From contig JAGMVK010000015.1 of the NCBI GenBank assembly GCA_020747065.1, positions 620,001-684,000 on the forward strand: a stretch of DNA of 64,000 bases, written 5' to 3'. The notes beneath the pieces were generated by a model, which was not told the DNA's origin, made no database searches, and worked only from the letters and a program-made list of their open reading frames with translations. Each line of letters opens with the position of its first letter. The first letter of the stretch is position 1. Below, one piece after another: positions 27,639 to 43,433 of the stretch. This DNA is from Cadophora sp. MPI-SDFR-AT-0126 (taxonomy: Eukaryota > Ascomycota > Leotiomycetes > Helotiales > Ploettnerulaceae). A program made the translations under genes and the position numbers.

Positions 27639-30600
27639 ATGCATCTCGTGCCGAAAGAGGTACGCGCATCCATTCTCCTCTCTCTCTCCCGTCCTTTCTC
27701 TCATTCTCTCCCCTACTTTCCCCTCCTCTCCTCTCCTCTGTCCCTCACTACCAGCCCTAGTTTCCGAGCGAGTGTCCAAATTTCCAGTTTCCAATCAATC
27801 ACCTAAAGAAGAGAACATACCTGCTAACGAACTCGACTCTTCGCCCGTAACAGCTCGACAAGCTCGTCATCTCTCAGCTGGGACTGCTGGCGCAGAGGAG
27901 GCTTGCGAGGGGCGTTAGGTTGAATCATTCGGAGGCTTGTGTGAGTTTTAAATTTCTCTTTCTGCTGATTTGGAAGGGTGTAGGTGAGGTGAGAGAGAGG
28001 GGGCAGGAGGGTAGGGGGGAGGGGGAGTGAGAGGGAGAATTGGAAGATGAGGGGGAATTGAGTTGAGAATTAAGAGGGGTGGAAGGGAGGGGAATTGGAT
28101 GGGAGGCAGAGGGAAGAGGGGAGAGGGGAGAGAGGAGAAGAATAGCTGATAGTAATGCTAATCCTGGGTTCTGCTAGGCTTTGATCGCGAGTAATTTACA
28201 AGAAGTATGTATACCTCTCTCCATACCACCTGCCCCTCTACCAGCGCATCGCACCAAATCCTCATACTGATATATACTTAACAGCTCATCCGCGATGGCG
28301 CCCACACCGTCTCCGACCTCATGTCCCTCGGCAGCACCATGCTCGGCCGACGCCACGTCCTCCCCTCCGTCCCCTCAACCCTCACAGAGATAATGGTCGA
28401 AGGCACATTCCCCACCGGGACCTACCTCGTTACCGTACATCATCCCATCAGCACCGATGACGGCGATCTGGCGAAGGCTCTGTATGGCAGTTTCCTGCCT
28501 GTGCCGGACAAGGAATTGTTTGCTTTGCCGAAGGAGGAGGAGTATGAGGGGACGAGGATGCCGGGGGCGGTTGTTGTGGTGAAGGAGGGAGGGAAGGTCA
28601 GGCTGAATGAGGGGAGGAGGAGGATTAGGCTCAGAGTTAAGAGTTTAGGGGATAGGCCGATACAGGTGTGTTTAATTCCTTGGTTTCAATTTTTAGATGG
28701 AAGAGGAGATCGGAGGCGTTGGAATTGGGAGGGCAGAAGAGAGGAGAGAAAGTCTGGCTAATTCTGCCAGATTGGTTCCCATTACCATTTCATCGAGACG
28801 AATCCCCAACTCGAATTCGACCGCGCAAAAGCCTACGGATACCGCCTCGACATCGCAGCTGGAACATCCGTTCGCTTCGAGCCTGGAGATACAAAGACCG
28901 TTACACTTGTTGAGATTGGCGGGAACAAGATCATTCGTGGCGGGAATCATCTGGCGACGGGTAAATTAGATCTCTCACGAATCGACGATATTGTAACGAA
29001 GCTCCAACAAGGCGGATTCGCACATGCGCCTGAACCGATTGGTAATGCGGCTCATATCAGCGGGTTCGAGATGGACAGAGCGGCGTATGCCACGATGTTT
29101 GGTCCTACAGTTGGTGATACGGTTAGATTGGGCTTTACGGATCTTTGGATCAAGGTTGAAAAAGACTTGACTTCTTACGGCGACGAGTGTAAATTCGGGG
29201 GCGGCAAGACACTACGAGAAGGAATGGGTCAAGCGACTGGTGTTTCCGACGAAGTTTCTCTGGATCTGGTGATAGTCAATGCTTTGATCGTCGATTGGAC
29301 CGGTATCTATAAAGCGGATATCGGTGTCAAAGATGGATATATTGTTGGGATTGGAAAGGCTGGGAATCCGGATGTGATGGAAGGAATCTCGCCGCCGAAT
29401 ATGATCGTGGGATCTTGTACGGATGTTATTGCTGGAGAGGGGAAGATTATCACGGCGGGTGGGTTTGATTCGCATATTCATTTTATCTGTCCTCAGCAGG
29501 TTAATGAGGCGATTGCGTCGGGTATTACGACTATGCTTGGTGGTGGGACTGGTCCTAGGTATGATATCGGACGAATGATATTGATTTTCGCTAAATGAAA
29601 GTAGTGCTGGGACGAGTGCGACGACTTGCACACCGGGTAAGAATTATATGCGGCAAATGCTTCAAGCATGCGATACCTTGCCTGTAAACTTTGGTATTAC
29701 AGGTAAAGGTAATGATAGCTCTCCTATTGCATTGAGAGAACAAGTTCTGGCCGGAGCATGTGGTCTCAAATTGCACGAGGATTGGGGAACCACCCCATCA
29801 GCAATCGATTCCTGCCTCACAGTCTGTGACGAACTGGACGTCCAGTGTCTGATCCATACCGACACACTCAATGAATCCGGCTTTGTCGAATCCACCATCG
29901 CCGCAATCAAAGACCGCACAATCCACACCTACCACACGGAAGGCGCTGGAGGAGGTCACGCCCCAGACATCATCAGCGTCGTCGAACACGCCAACGTCCT
30001 CCCCTCATCCACCAACCCCACGCGACCATTCACTCGCAACACCCTGGACGAACATCTTGACATGCTAATGGTCTGCCACCACCTCTCCAAAAACATTCCT
30101 GAAGATGTCGCTTTTGCCGAGTCCCGCATCCGCGCTGAAACAATCGCTGCAGAAGACGTCCTTCACGACCTCGGCGCTATCAGCATGATGTCCTCAGATT
30201 CACAAGCTATGGGACGCTGCGGCGAAGTCATCCTTCGCACGTGGAACACCGCGCACAAGAACAAGGTGCAGCGCGGTTTCCTTGCCGAAGATGAGGGTAC
30301 CGGCGCGGATAACTTTAGGGTCAAGAGATATGTGAGCAAGTATACTATTAATCCAGCTATTGCGCAGGGGATGGGTCATGTTATTGGGAGTGTTGAGGTG
30401 GGCAAGTTGGCCGATTTGGTGGTTTGGGATCCGGCTTGGTTTGGGACGAAGCCGATGACTGTTGTGAAGAGTGGTTTGATTGCTTATGCGCAGATGGTGA
30501 GTCCTCTACTTTTCTTCCTTCTCACTTTATATTTCTCCTCCCCAGTGTACAACCCCCTAACGTCTTTCAGGGCGACCCCAACGCCTCCATCCCCACCGTC

Positions 30601-39790: not shown

Positions 39791-39843
39791 TGACCCCTTA
39801 ACTTAGGGGTCACCACCCGGGTCCCAATCTACCTCTATATATA
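39791..39843 (+). promoter_or_regulatory. Inverted repeat plus TATA box upstream of small Cys protein B
   Basis: TGACCCCT and AGGGGTCA form a perfect 8-bp inverted repeat around a 6-base spacer (39791-39812). A TATA box (CTATATATAC) follows at about 39835-39843, some 95 bases upstream of the ATG at 39929. The arrangement suggests a binding site for a dimeric regulator next to a core promoter. Confidence 0.5.
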
Positions 39844-39928
39844 CACCTCCTACGTAGACTTCTCTGCCATCGCTACCCCCCTCCACCCTGCAACAGTACA
39901 GCTTGTAGCCATTAATTCGGAGGCAGCA

Positions 39929-40120
39929 ATGTGCTACAAGGAGTACTTCAAGTATATCACCTGTGAGCACCACGTCTTGCAGCGAATCGCCAAGTGCGGG
40001 TATCCAGAGTGCGGTGGGCCTGGAAGCAATCGAATTATTTTACCTCGTGCGGGATACTGTCCGGATTGCAGCACAAGGGCCGAGGTGATCAGACTTATGC
40101 AGGAGAGATGCAAAGTTTGA
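39929..40120 (+). CDS. Small Met-Cys cysteine-rich protein (family member B)
   Basis: A single exon encodes 63 aa starting MCYKEYFKYITCEHH. Cysteines fall at the N terminus, in a C-x-H near residue 12, in a central KCGYPECGG pair, and in a C-terminal CPDC pair. This is a zinc-ribbon-like layout. There is no signal peptide, so an intracellular protein is likely. The family start Met-Cys-x-x-x-(F/Y)-x-x-Y/I-x-C-x-(C/H) is shared with the frames at 31778, 41094 and 41763. A TATA box and a palindrome lie upstream. Function is unknown. Confidence 0.65.
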   Translation: MCYKEYFKYITCEHHVLQRIAKCGYPECGGPGSNRIILPRAGYCPDCSTRAEVIRLMQERCKV

Positions 40121-41093
40121 TGGAGATGATTGGGATCATAGGGCTGGTCCCTAAACTTACAAATTTATTCTGTTGCTTACAAGACTTTGGGTTTCCCACA
40201 AACTTTTGTGCTGTACAGTACATTCGTGAATATTTGTGGAATTGGAACTTTGTGATTGTCTGTTTGGATTTATACTTTTGAATCTGTGACTATCACTCAA
40301 AAATTTGACAAGAAGTGCATTGAAAAGTCATTTAGTCGACTAATGATAAAGAGAAATTAAGAGGGATCTCGTTTGTTTTCGCGAAGTCGGGTGAGAGGGA
40401 ATTCAAGCTCAGACTCACGAATTCTAACCACGCCCAACGTACCATACTTGGCCCATCCTCAGTCATCCTGGCAGCTTATCGCCTCCAATGTCATTGTATG
40501 ATAGATATTCCAGGGACCAGGAAGTCTGGTGTGTGAATCATCAGATATTTTACTGCGTCAAGCAGAATGTAGGCAGTCGGGGACTGTAAATATAGGACAT
40601 GACTGGTGGTTAATAGGTAGATTCCTCTTCTGCACAGCTATTTTAGCGTTGCAGTTGCTCTACTGTTTTAGAGTTCTTGGTCTTGTTTGCGCTTTTATTA
40701 ATTGTAGAGAGGTTACACGAAATTGTTAGGTGGCAAACGTGCAAAGATCAATTCCATTGTTCTTTTCAGCAAAGACATTTAAATTATGCTTTGGCATTTG
40801 TCTTCATTAGATAACAATAAGACAAAGCAATGTCTGAAATAGAAGAGGTGACAGAGTTCAATGTTCTCAGTAAATGTCCCGGCCTTTGTTCTTCGACCTG
40901 GAGACATCCAAATACCGTATGATCTCTGATCCCCAGATCGAATATGCAAAGGAGCGCTCTTTTGTTCTCAAGAACAACGAGTAACATTCCGATATAATCA
41001 GAGCATGATGTGAGGTCCCCTTTGCTCTGCAACTTTCACAAAACTGGCTCCATTCCGTTTTCACTCCTCCTTCCGACCGAAAATCAGGTCAAA
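40121..41093. other. Intergenic, AT-rich
   Basis: No gene is supported. A TATA-like word (GATATAATC) at about 40991 lies roughly 100 bases upstream of the next small gene. Confidence 0.4.
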
Positions 41094-41459
41094 ATGTGTA
41101 GCAAACTCTTCAGAACGTACACTTGCACTTGCAAGCATCTCATTTTCACGACACCCTGCTCAAATTTGCATTCATCGAATCCATGTGTCTGCACAAACTC
41201 ACTTGCAGATGCTGAATTTCCATGCATCGACTGTCGGGAGTCAAAGCAGCGCCGTGGATATACGAAGGTTCATTGGACATACAGCTGTGGCTGCGTAAGG
41301 CTCGCTTATTTCACACCGAATGAAGATGAAATGCAGTCAACTGAAGTTGTGAAGGAGGTTGGGATTCCGTGTGTGGAATGCCTGGATGTGGAGATGGCGC
41401 GCATGGAGTGGATGTTTGAAAAAATTGAAGGTGAGTCAAAGAGGGGCGAGGATGTGTAA
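41094..41459 (+). CDS. Small Met-Cys cysteine-rich protein with duplicated module (family member C)
   Basis: A single exon encodes 121 aa. The first module runs from MCSKLFRTYTCTCKH to a FPCIDC pair. The second repeats the pattern with WTYSCGCVRLAYF and a GIPCVEC pair. Each module therefore has a Y-x-C-x-C motif and a later P-C-x2-C, as expected for two zinc-binding knuckles. No signal peptide is seen, and the C terminus is charged. The start is set by the conserved Met-Cys; the longer open frame upstream is not protein-like. Function is unknown. Confidence 0.65.
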   Translation: MCSKLFRTYTCTCKHLIFTTPCSNLHSSNPCVCTNSLADAEFPCIDCRESKQRRGYTKVHWTYSCGCVRLAYFTPNEDEMQSTEVVKEVGIPCVECLDVEMARMEWMFEKIEGESKRGEDV

Positions 41460-41762
41460 GACGAAGGGAACATTGCTGTTCAAGGAAATAGGGAACAGAT
41501 GGAACCTGCTTTCATGAAAACACAACGTATTTTTATCTCCGCTTGGTTTCATATTAGCATAAAAACAATGAACAGCTGTTGACAGCGACATTCTCCAAAC
41601 AGCCTGTACTGCTTTGTTTTTCTTCCCAAAACAAGTGAAGCCATTCACGTGAATGAGCTCAATAACGATGTATATATATCTGGGACATCCCCCCATAACA
41701 TCATTCAGACTCACCAAAACATTTCTTGCCACAAGTCCATCTCCTTGCTCGGCAACTTCAAA
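41460..41762. other. Promoter region of family member D
   Basis: This AT-rich 300-base spacer between members C and D carries the palindrome and TATA box described for member D. Confidence 0.45.
41642..41679 (+). promoter_or_regulatory. E-box palindrome plus TATA box upstream of small Cys protein D
   Basis: CATTCACGTGAATG is a perfect 14-bp palindrome centred on a CACGTG E-box (41642-41655). A TATATATAT box follows at about 41670-41679, some 90 bases upstream of the ATG at 41763. This matches the spacing seen for member B, though the palindrome sequence differs. Confidence 0.5.
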
Positions 41763-42137
41763 ATGTGCAACAAACACTTCACCACCTACAGCTGCGGCTG
41801 CACCGTCTTCGATAACATCATCCGGTGCCGGGTCCACATGAACCCAGTACCGGCAGCATGTTCAAAGGAAAGCATCGCTAAATCTGATTACCTCATTTCA
41901 CGAGCGACTATTCCCTCTTGCCTATCTTGCTGCCTGCTCGACACCCCACCTGCCGGACTTCTGAAGATCTATATCTCTTACAGCTGTGGATGTACACGGT
42001 TCGAGTCATACTTGCGTAGCTCAAATTATGGCCCATATCCTCGTAAATTATCCTCTACTGCTGAGGTGCAGTGCTTCGAATGCAGAGTACATGAATTGAC
42101 TGAGCATTCTGCTGAGACGCTTGAGAGTTTGGACTAG
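41763..42137 (+). CDS. Small Met-Cys cysteine-rich protein with duplicated module (family member D)
   Basis: A single exon encodes 124 aa. It starts MCNKHFTTYSCGC, has a first module ending in the cluster SCLSCC, then a second module with ISYSCGCTRFESYL and a VQCFEC pair. The layout matches member C module for module, so C and D are probable tandem duplicates that have diverged strongly. It lacks a signal peptide. The gene ends about 250 bases before the unusual tRNA gene. Confidence 0.65.
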   Translation: MCNKHFTTYSCGCTVFDNIIRCRVHMNPVPAACSKESIAKSDYLISRATIPSCLSCCLLDTPPAGLLKIYISYSCGCTRFESYLRSSNYGPYPRKLSSTAEVQCFECRVHELTEHSAETLESLD

Positions 42138-42383: not shown

Positions 42384-42519
42384 GGCCGGATAGTTCAGTG
42401 GTAGAATACGTGCTTTGGGTAATATCAACGCTTGTACGTGGTCTTGGGTTCAATGTGAGTTTCATGAAGATATACTTCTTCTTGATCAACAACTAATGTC
42501 AACAGCCCCAATTCGGCCC
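42384..42519 (+). tRNA. tRNA-Pro(UGG) with two insertions: anticodon-loop intron and a spliceosomal-type intron in the T-loop
   Basis: The acceptor arms (42384-42390 and 42512-42518) pair fully with one G-U, and discriminator C is at 42519. The D-arm is 42393-42407 with the usual AGTGGTA loop. The anticodon stem 42409-42413 pairs with 42434-42438, and the anticodon TGG is at 42416-42418. A 13-nt intron (42420-42432) sits at the canonical 37/38 position. The T-stem TTGGG (42444-42448) pairs with CCCAA at 42507-42511, but only across a 51-nt insertion (42455-42505) placed after the sixth T-loop base. That insertion begins GTGAGT, has CTAAT near its end and finishes CAG. Removing both gives 72 nt and a perfect cloverleaf. 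Gly35, Gly36-type identity (G35, G36) and C73 fit proline. The insertion splits the Pol III B box, so expression is uncertain; a pseudogene is the main alternative. Confidence 0.75.
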
Positions 42520-42900: not shown

Positions 42901-43433
42901 TCAATCCGTATCTTCGGTGATATCATCACCCAATATTTCTGATTGCCCTTCCTCCTCATCGTCCTCATAATCTTCGTCCGGAACCAAAATCTTTCTCCTC
43001 ACACCCACAGCCCTTCCCGGCCTACCCCTGCCCCGCTTCTCCTTTCCAGTGTGCTTCTTCTCATCCTTCTCACCCAAGCCGTGATTATCATTATCCTCAA
43101 TGTCATCTTTGTCAGCCACTCTCTCACACTTTCTATTCCCATTCTTCTCCGCGGCTTCTTTTCGTGGAGAGGGAGAAGTGGCTAGTGCAAAATTAGCGAA
43201 GGAAGTCCTTGCACATTGCATCTGCCAATACCGGCGGTCTTACCCAAAGTCTTGCTGGGACTATTTTTTGGGCTTCCAGCTACAGATTCGTCAAGCTTTG
43301 CCTTCAAACGTCGCCATCGTGAGCGTGCTGCCTCGGAATTGGAAAGACCAATGTCACCAGCCAGACGCTGGAAGTCAGCTTGGTGACAGAGCTCGGAGAG
43401 GACAGTTGCCATGATTTGGTTTTCGGAAGCCAT
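42901..43433 (-). CDS. Small Myb/SANT-like protein, copy 1
   Basis: Two exons (43433-43244 and 43181-42901) give 156 aa. The N terminus starts MASENQIMATVLSELC and holds a helix-turn-helix-like segment (FQRLAGDIGLSNSEAARSRWRRLKAKL) typical of small fungal Myb-like DNA-binding proteins. The second half is strongly charged. It carries an AT-hook-like KRGRGRPGR core and an acidic tail (EDYEDDEEEG). Together these suggest a nuclear, DNA-binding protein. A related gene on the same strand lies about 570 bases upstream (44000-44558), so the two are tandem paralogues. Confidence 0.7.

Follow-up and report, generated by a model that had tools for sequence, protein, structure and literature searches.

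Introns of the spliceosomal type in tRNA genes of the fungus Cadophora sp. MPI-SDFR-AT-0126

Introduction

It is standard teaching that spliceosomal splicing and tRNA splicing are distinct pathways, each with its own substrates. The usual substrate of the spliceosome is RNA transcribed by RNA polymerase II (Pol II), and GT..AG intron borders have no role in the pathway in which tRNA endonuclease cuts a bulge-helix-bulge (BHB) structure.

Several systems are known in which introns occur outside their customary places. The U6 gene of Schizosaccharomyces pombe is described as containing an mRNA-type intron (PMC10484740), and according to a 2017 paper on fungal U3 snoRNA introns, frequent interruption by introns is known, among small structured RNAs, for U3 and U6 only (PMC5832005). 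Ectopic spliceosomal introns are reported from the rDNA of lichen-forming fungi, and in yeast they are excised from Pol I transcripts too (PMC8527467). As for tRNA genes, nuclear introns are placed at position 37/38 in the relevant passage of a review. Ectopic tRNA introns are described in Cyanidioschyzon merolae and in the nucleomorph of Guillardia theta, many of those in G. theta being without a defined BHB motif; T-arm introns of C. merolae lie at 55/56 and 53/54, and the one at 55/56 is said to be BHB-processed (PMC3978253, PMC9602550).

Here we describe a tRNA-Pro(UGG) gene in a 64,000-nt stretch of DNA (the window; contig JAGMVK010000015.1, positions 620,001 to 684,000) of Cadophora sp. 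MPI-SDFR-AT-0126, together with related genes in the rest of the genome. Their putative introns resemble those of fungal U6 genes (S. pombe and others) in being of the U2 type and in interrupting a small structured RNA of RNA polymerase III (Pol III), and a U6 copy of the present genome is interrupted as well. They differ from them in that the host is a tRNA, many genes and positions are affected, a second intron of the endonuclease type is present in 12 of 16 genes and the internal promoter is split in several. Fungal U3 snoRNA introns likewise are described as normal spliceosomal introns in a small structured RNA (PMC5832005), although their host is not a tRNA. The rDNA introns of lichens are another case of fungal spliceosomal introns beyond Pol II genes, but they reside in Pol I rRNA genes. 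C. merolae and G. theta share with the present case tRNA introns off 37/38, including, in C. merolae, the T arm. Unlike the inserts considered here, however, the C. merolae introns are BHB-mediated by description, and the portions of the two papers that treat them mention no GT..AG and branch signature.

Results

Anatomy of the tRNA-Pro(UGG) gene

The window gene and its surroundings contain the following features (positions in the window).

42384..42419, + strand: exon 1 of tRNA-Pro(UGG), with the acceptor 5' strand, the D arm and the anticodon arm up to position 37; shared with the copy on contig C3 and with locus L123 of NYXK01000005.1
42420..42432, + strand: canonical 37/38 intron of the tRNA endonuclease type, 13 nt; given by ARAGORN as intron (38,13) after removal of the 51-nt insert; identical in L123
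42433..42454, + strand: exon 2, from position 38 up to T-loop base 59
42455..42505, + strand: spliceosomal-type intron, 51 nt, GTGAGT...CAG, at T-loop position 59/60; the C3 copy likewise interrupted at this site, the C34 copy and L123 with an empty site
42493..42497, + strand: branch-site-like CTAAT, its presumed branch A 9 bases before the insert end
42506..42519, + strand: exon 3, with position 60, the T-stem 3' strand, the acceptor 3' strand and discriminator C73
42536..42540, + strand: TTTTT, resembling a Pol III terminator and starting 17 nt beyond the tRNA end

The first-pass annotation had described a 13-nt intron at 37/38 and a 51-nt piece in the T loop marked by GTGAGT, CTAAT and CAG, the excision of which would restore a 7-base T loop, the T stem and the acceptor stem. 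Its coordinates proved right to the base. With the insert in place, ARAGORN found no tRNA in the window and Rfam none over the cut-off; a permissive Rfam search gave, at this gene, a misaligned tRNA family match of 12.8 bits, where the cut-off is 29. With the insert removed, ARAGORN called tRNA-Pro (tgg) with the same 13-nt intron. The resulting cloverleaf is complete: all seven acceptor pairs (GGCCGGA/TTCGGCC) and all five T-stem pairs are formed, the T arm reads TTGGG-TTCAATC-CCCAA with a loop of 7 bases, and the discriminator is C. The GT and AG borders of the insert are not slidable, and shuffled inserts combined a GT[AGT]NGY start with an AG end at a frequency of 5.6e-5.

The gene lies between an ORF ending at 42137 and another beginning at 42901, and it is inside no ORF of at least 90 aa. 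Beside it, at 39794-42137, are three ORFs with alike cysteine-rich starts (MC..F..Y.C.C-like), perhaps a tandem family.

Survey of tRNA loci

The genome around the window consists of 54 Mb in 38 contigs, numbered here with C, the window copy being on C7; the style of its genes and introns points to an ascomycete. An Rfam tRNA search yielded at least 52 matches, of which at least 49 were over the cut-off; these are lower bounds, 62 of 1988 candidates having been scored. In total, 66 tRNA loci were read, comprising 50 of the 52 Rfam matches and 16 others found with the 136-nt window gene or with D-arm patterns. Two Rfam matches of 21-22 bits and five A-box matches stand outside this set, as do loci L119 and L120, which contained no tRNA. 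Inserts outside 37/38 numbered 18 and were located in 16 of the 66 loci. Interruption of this kind thus affects at least 16 tRNA genes in the genome, the flagged gene included. The insert-less controls were 42 genes, with L110, L112, L113, L114, L115, L117, L118 and L121 (insert-less or unclear) excluded. L113 (C7:1453292-1453532) is tRNA-like, with an ATC-like anticodon and an incompletely paired acceptor in AT-rich DNA, and is either a pseudogene or another interrupted gene. Apart from slight differences in length, L110 (C27:29801) duplicates the Ser(AGA) gene L031, and C27 may be an unpolished duplicate contig.

The first-pass annotation had also proposed a search for other tRNA-Pro(UGG) genes. 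The 136-nt gene found two paralogs. One, C34:242275 (L003), is an insert-less Pro(UGG) gene scoring 50 bits as an Rfam tRNA. The other, C3:320117 (L002), is itself interrupted at 59/60 by a GTGAGT...TAG insert, which measures 116 nt, most of it an (AG)n run (C3:320190-320305). A sequence pattern (GGTTCRANTGTRNGT shortened by one base) gave 24 matches, of which those at the C3 and C7 loci alone lie behind a tRNA. An A-box-like string preceded 4 of the 24 within 110 nt, and two of these four showed no tRNA by eye. A Pro D-arm pattern gave 44 matches against 69 for its reversed control, so its two-mismatch matches are mostly due to chance. Eleven of the 44 were read by eye and 30 loci were passed through ARAGORN, 14 two-mismatch matches being left out. 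ARAGORN found no further tRNA-Pro at those 30 loci, though interrupted genes would escape it. Within this scope (30 loci of the 44 matches), the only recognised genes for Pro(AGG) and for Pro(CGG) contain two inserts each. A Phe/Tyr/Asn-type pattern search led to five known Lys genes and three other places, and a scan of viral contigs gave no match. Among the loci read, genes for Phe, Tyr, Asn, His, Val(AAC) and some other isoacceptors were not seen.

Positions and splice signals of the inserts

The 18 inserts are distributed over the tRNA as follows (each slash separates the flanking tRNA positions).

Acceptor 5' strand: Ile(AAU) C1 6/7; Ile(AAU) C18 6/7; Ile(AAU) C13 5/6; Arg(UCU) C13 6/7; Pro(AGG) C8 6/7
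Variable loop: elongator Met C18 46/47; Pro(CGG) C10 47/48
T arm, 50/51 to 55/56: Ala(AGC) C12b 50/51; Glu(UUC) C14 52/53; Pro(CGG) C10 54/55; Arg(UCG) C1 55/56
T arm, 58/59 to 61/62: Ala(AGC) C12a 58/59; Pro(UGG) C7 and C3 59/60; Pro(UGG) C34b and Pro(AGG) C8 61/62
Acceptor 3' strand: Ser(AGA) C15 69/70; Leu(UAA) C36 71/72

The weakest case is Leu(UAA) C36, the last exon of which is two bases long. None of the 18 inserts lies at positions 8-45, possibly through ascertainment, as the genes were found via the D arm and anticodon.

All 18 inserts in the 16 genes have the form GT[AGT]NGY...AG, and all contain [CT]T[AG]A[CT] in their final 40 nt, as compared with 34% of shuffles. Each thus shows a 5' splice site of the U2-type consensus (GTRNGT-like), a branch-like motif and a terminal AG. 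The A of the motif lies 9-12 nt from the insert end in 14 of the 18; in the remaining four it is off this register (taking the 3'-most match), at 3 nt in the C3 copy, which is too close for a branch site, at 6 nt in both the first Pro(CGG) insert and Glu, and at 17 nt in Arg(UCU). Seventeen of the 18 inserts are 50-61 nt long. By comparison, the canonical 37/38 introns, present in 12 of the 16 genes (ARAGORN gives 17 and 34 nt for those of Pro(AGG) and Glu), never start with GT (0/12).

The comparison with mRNA introns in length and make-up was made with the urease introns of the window. One of these, with ends placed by eye between tblastn exons, has the form GTGAGT...CTAAC...CAG and is 74 nt long. 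On the opposite strand to the urease gene, at 29212-29509, there is an Rfam match to 5_ureB_sRNA (69.8 bits), which probably reflects coding conservation rather than an sRNA. A U6 snRNA copy (C11:486589-486742) has 51 nt of the form GTAAGT...GGCTAAC...TTTCAG between ATGGC and CCCTGC; this copy scores 38.6 bits, under the Rfam cut-off of 44, and 100 nt of it were read (L122, 486620-486719). Three other U6 copies, all on C38, are of normal length by their matches.

The inserts might alternatively be ectopic tRNA introns that form a BHB and are cut by the tRNA-splicing endonuclease, as in C. merolae. The Arg(UCG) C1 insert lies at 55/56, the site of the processed C. merolae intron cited above, and the Ile C13 insert makes a 4-bp central helix when one border is shifted by one base. 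In exact register, however, such a helix was formed by none of the 18 inserts (3 of 4 pairs in the window insert, at whose borders the first-pass annotation had formed no BHB), although this test is weak, since just 1 of the 12 canonical 37/38 introns passed it and the two kinds of intron were not told apart. The GT..AG borders of all 18 inserts argue against BHB cleavage, having no part in it, and the predicted fold of the window pre-tRNA would place both splice sites in an enlarged T loop. We regard this explanation as extremely improbable, and spliceosomal-type introns remain the preferred reading.

Integrity of the interrupted genes

The first-pass annotation had offered a second possibility, that of a tRNA pseudogene with a fortuitous intron-like insert. 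Extended to the interrupted copies as a class, this would mean that the intact paralogs supply the tRNA. The presence of at least one insert-less Pro(UGG) gene is in its favour, and so are the split B box and missing upstream element of the window gene (see below). The stems of the interrupted genes, however, show no decay. After insert removal, each of the 16 genes has 7/7 acceptor and 5/5 T-stem pairs, so that none of 192 pairs is broken, while the 42 insert-less controls have 500 of 504. Dead copies would be expected to lose their 5' and 3' splice-site motifs, yet all 18 inserts retain both.

Gene prediction gave a similar picture. ARAGORN made no call on 9 of the 16 unspliced genes, was correct for Met and Ser, and assigned wrong ends or a wrong identity to the other five. 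With the inserts removed, isotype and anticodon were right for 13 of 16 genes when the 37/38 intron was kept and for 14 of 16 when it was taken out, each of the 16 being right in at least one of the two versions.

Pairs that straddle an insert were compared with those of an insert-less gene for 15 genes, Pro(UGG) C34 serving as the reference for every Pro gene. Among 135 such pairs, both partners differed in 23 and a single partner in 3; double changes were also seen in 4 pairs that do not straddle an insert. These paired changes speak against dead copies, although they may be older than the inserts.

The best single test of the interrupted-but-intact reading is the Pro(AGG) gene. Its 3' acceptor strand, TAAGACC, does not pair with the DNA before the D arm and requires GGTCTTA. 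GGTCTT occurs 65 nt upstream and is followed by GTAAGC...CTAAC...TAG. When random window pieces were forced to end in AG, between 0 and 4 of 20,000 trials produced a comparable solution in each of the five acceptor 5'-strand cases. That, among the loci covered, the sole recognised Pro(AGG) and Pro(CGG) genes are doubly interrupted also tells against pseudogenes.

The C7 and C3 copies of Pro(UGG) are identical at 72 of 72 exon positions. Their inserts (51 and 116 nt) agree at 35 of the 50 positions that can be aligned (z 4.1 relative to shuffles in which the splice motifs were not kept), and the 80 nt upstream show no similarity beyond that of shuffles (z -0.3); downstream, the first ~40 nt are still alike (87% over 47 nt). 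Identical exons beside diverged inserts and upstream DNA suggest an old duplication under constraint, although gene conversion could also have kept the exons identical. Taken with the stems and the paired changes, this makes it very unlikely that the interrupted genes are pseudogenes, and the alternative of the first-pass annotation is disfavoured relative to intact, intron-bearing genes.

Empty sites and origin of the inserts

Insert-less members of the interrupted gene families were seen for Pro(UGG), Met, Arg(UCG), Arg(UCU), Ile(AAU), Glu(UUC), Ala and Ser. An exon-1 pattern scan of bacterial and archaeal genomes gave one locus, L123 on NYXK01000005.1, in which the exons are the same and the 13-nt 37/38 intron is identical but the T-loop insert is absent. 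Its flanks match the C3 locus over 771 bp at 70% downstream and over 204 bp at 78% including the 5' part of the tRNA, while its match to the window is confined to the surroundings of the tRNA. L123 is therefore syntenic to the C3 gene and has an empty site. The difference is more simply explained by gain of the insert in the present lineage, although the relative behind L123 may instead have lost it precisely. NYXK01000005.1 is a contig of ~134 kb filed under a Deltaproteobacteria MAG and evidently fungal, judging by its tRNA and by the resemblance to the present genome; it is a contamination of the public bacterial genome collection. The MAG record that holds it has 31 tRNA matches.

The first-pass annotation had raised an introner-like origin and suggested looking for copies of the 51-nt insert. 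Introner-like mobile elements recently inserted into tRNA genes would explain why inserts of comparable length occur in many genes and are missing from other copies, and some inserts of the same family do resemble each other to a degree (Ile C1 with C18, z 5.1 against shuffles without splice motifs kept). However, when the 18 inserts (that of C3 shortened) and the U6 intron were joined into 1032 nt and searched against the genome, all 19 matches were to their own loci, and inserts of unrelated genes are hardly similar (Met and Glu, z 1.3). Recent introner-like insertion is therefore hardly credible, and the idea found no footing beside that of ordinary spliceosomal-type introns.

Promoter, terminator and polymerase

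The first-pass annotation held that the insert splits the Pol III B box and that Pol II transcription might be needed. The B-box consensus is GGTTCRANNCC. Eight of the 18 inserts fall within the B box. The corresponding stretch of the window gene reads GGTTCAATGTG in the DNA, with 9 of the 11 consensus positions left, so that the split is real and the box is not intact; in three other cases among the eight (Glu, Pro C34b and Pro AGG), the uninterrupted DNA matches at 11, 10 and 9 of 11 positions. The split boxes lend some weight to transcription by Pol II, as do the inserts in the acceptor 5' strand, which separate the 5' end from the A box by 51-60 nt, and the fact that Pol II RNA is what the spliceosome usually works on.

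The 3' ends of the genes point the other way. A run of at least five T is found within 40 nt downstream in 15 of the 16 insert genes and 36 of the 42 insert-less genes, as against 2.9% of random 40-mers of the window. No insert contains T5 (1.3 expected from shuffles), and T4 occurs in one (4.2 expected, p 0.04). The B boxes that still match at 9-11 of 11 positions, the lack of an enclosing ORF at the window tRNA and the mRNA-type intron of fission-yeast U6, itself described as a Pol III RNA (PMC10484740), weigh against Pol II as well. Transcription of the interrupted genes by Pol II is thus unlikely, and we favour Pol III.

A candidate start-site element was seen upstream. The motif [AG]ATAAG occurs within 90 nt upstream of 27 of the 42 insert-less genes, at a distance of 13-70 nt from the tRNA (median 35), compared with 7% of shuffles, and within 80 nt upstream of 9 of the 16 insert genes (for one of which only 23 nt are visible). 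Where an insert interrupts the acceptor 5' strand, the motif precedes exon 1 by 34-46 nt in 4 of 5 genes, registered to the tRNA 5' end and not to the displaced A box. We infer that a TATA-like box may select the Pol III start. The window copy has no [AG]ATAAG upstream. With this element missing and the B box split, its own expression is the least certain, and since an insert-less Pro(UGG) gene (L003) exists, the flagged copy need not be needed.

Discussion

The gene flagged in the window is very probably a working nuclear tRNA-Pro(UGG) gene with a 37/38 intron and a U2-type spliceosomal intron in its T loop. It is one of at least 16 tRNA genes in this genome with introns of the latter type, which lie in the acceptor stem, variable loop or T arm. 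The anatomy of the genes, the recurrence of the inserts, their empty sites and the conserved and covarying exons are features of the DNA itself. The main proposal of the first-pass annotation, acquisition of a spliceosomal-type intron by a tRNA gene that would then rely on two splicing systems, is supported by the pattern across the 16 genes.

The involvement of the polymerase and the spliceosome, which we infer from such features, may be pictured as follows. Pol III would transcribe the gene and stop at the T run, its start being set in many of the sibling genes perhaps by [AG]ATAAG. The spliceosome would recognise GTGAGT, CTAAT and CAG and join T59 to C60, completing the T arm. tRNA endonuclease and ligase would excise the 37/38 intron, with end trimming, after or overlapping the spliceosomal step. 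Fold prediction for the window precursor yields the T stem, with the insert as an enlarged loop that holds both splice sites, although the fold is weak (z -1.3).

No report of spliceosomal introns in tRNA genes was found in the open-licence literature, a scope outside which most subscription papers fall, and none was seen in PMC11782384 or PMC13130702. The intron type is known, and its tRNA host class and its spread are new as far as that literature shows.

If the introns are spliced, tRNA gene finders miss such genes, as the 9 of 16 unspliced genes without an ARAGORN call illustrate. The genes would also provide a natural set of introns, with empty sites, in exons that are short and constrained by structure; on this set, intron gain and the handling of split promoters by Pol III could be tested. 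On balance we lean towards an invasion of the tRNA genes of a fungal lineage by spliceosomal introns. Some of the tRNAs of this lineage would then need the spliceosome, among them Pro(AGG) and Pro(CGG), for each of which the only gene recognised has two such introns. Precursors would be handled by two unrelated splicing systems, and Pol III transcription driven by the A and B boxes would cope with intron-split promoters. The sequences suggest that the production of some tRNAs depends on the mRNA-splicing machinery. If so, the spliceosome would make tRNAs in this fungus, and translation and mRNA splicing would be coupled in a new way.
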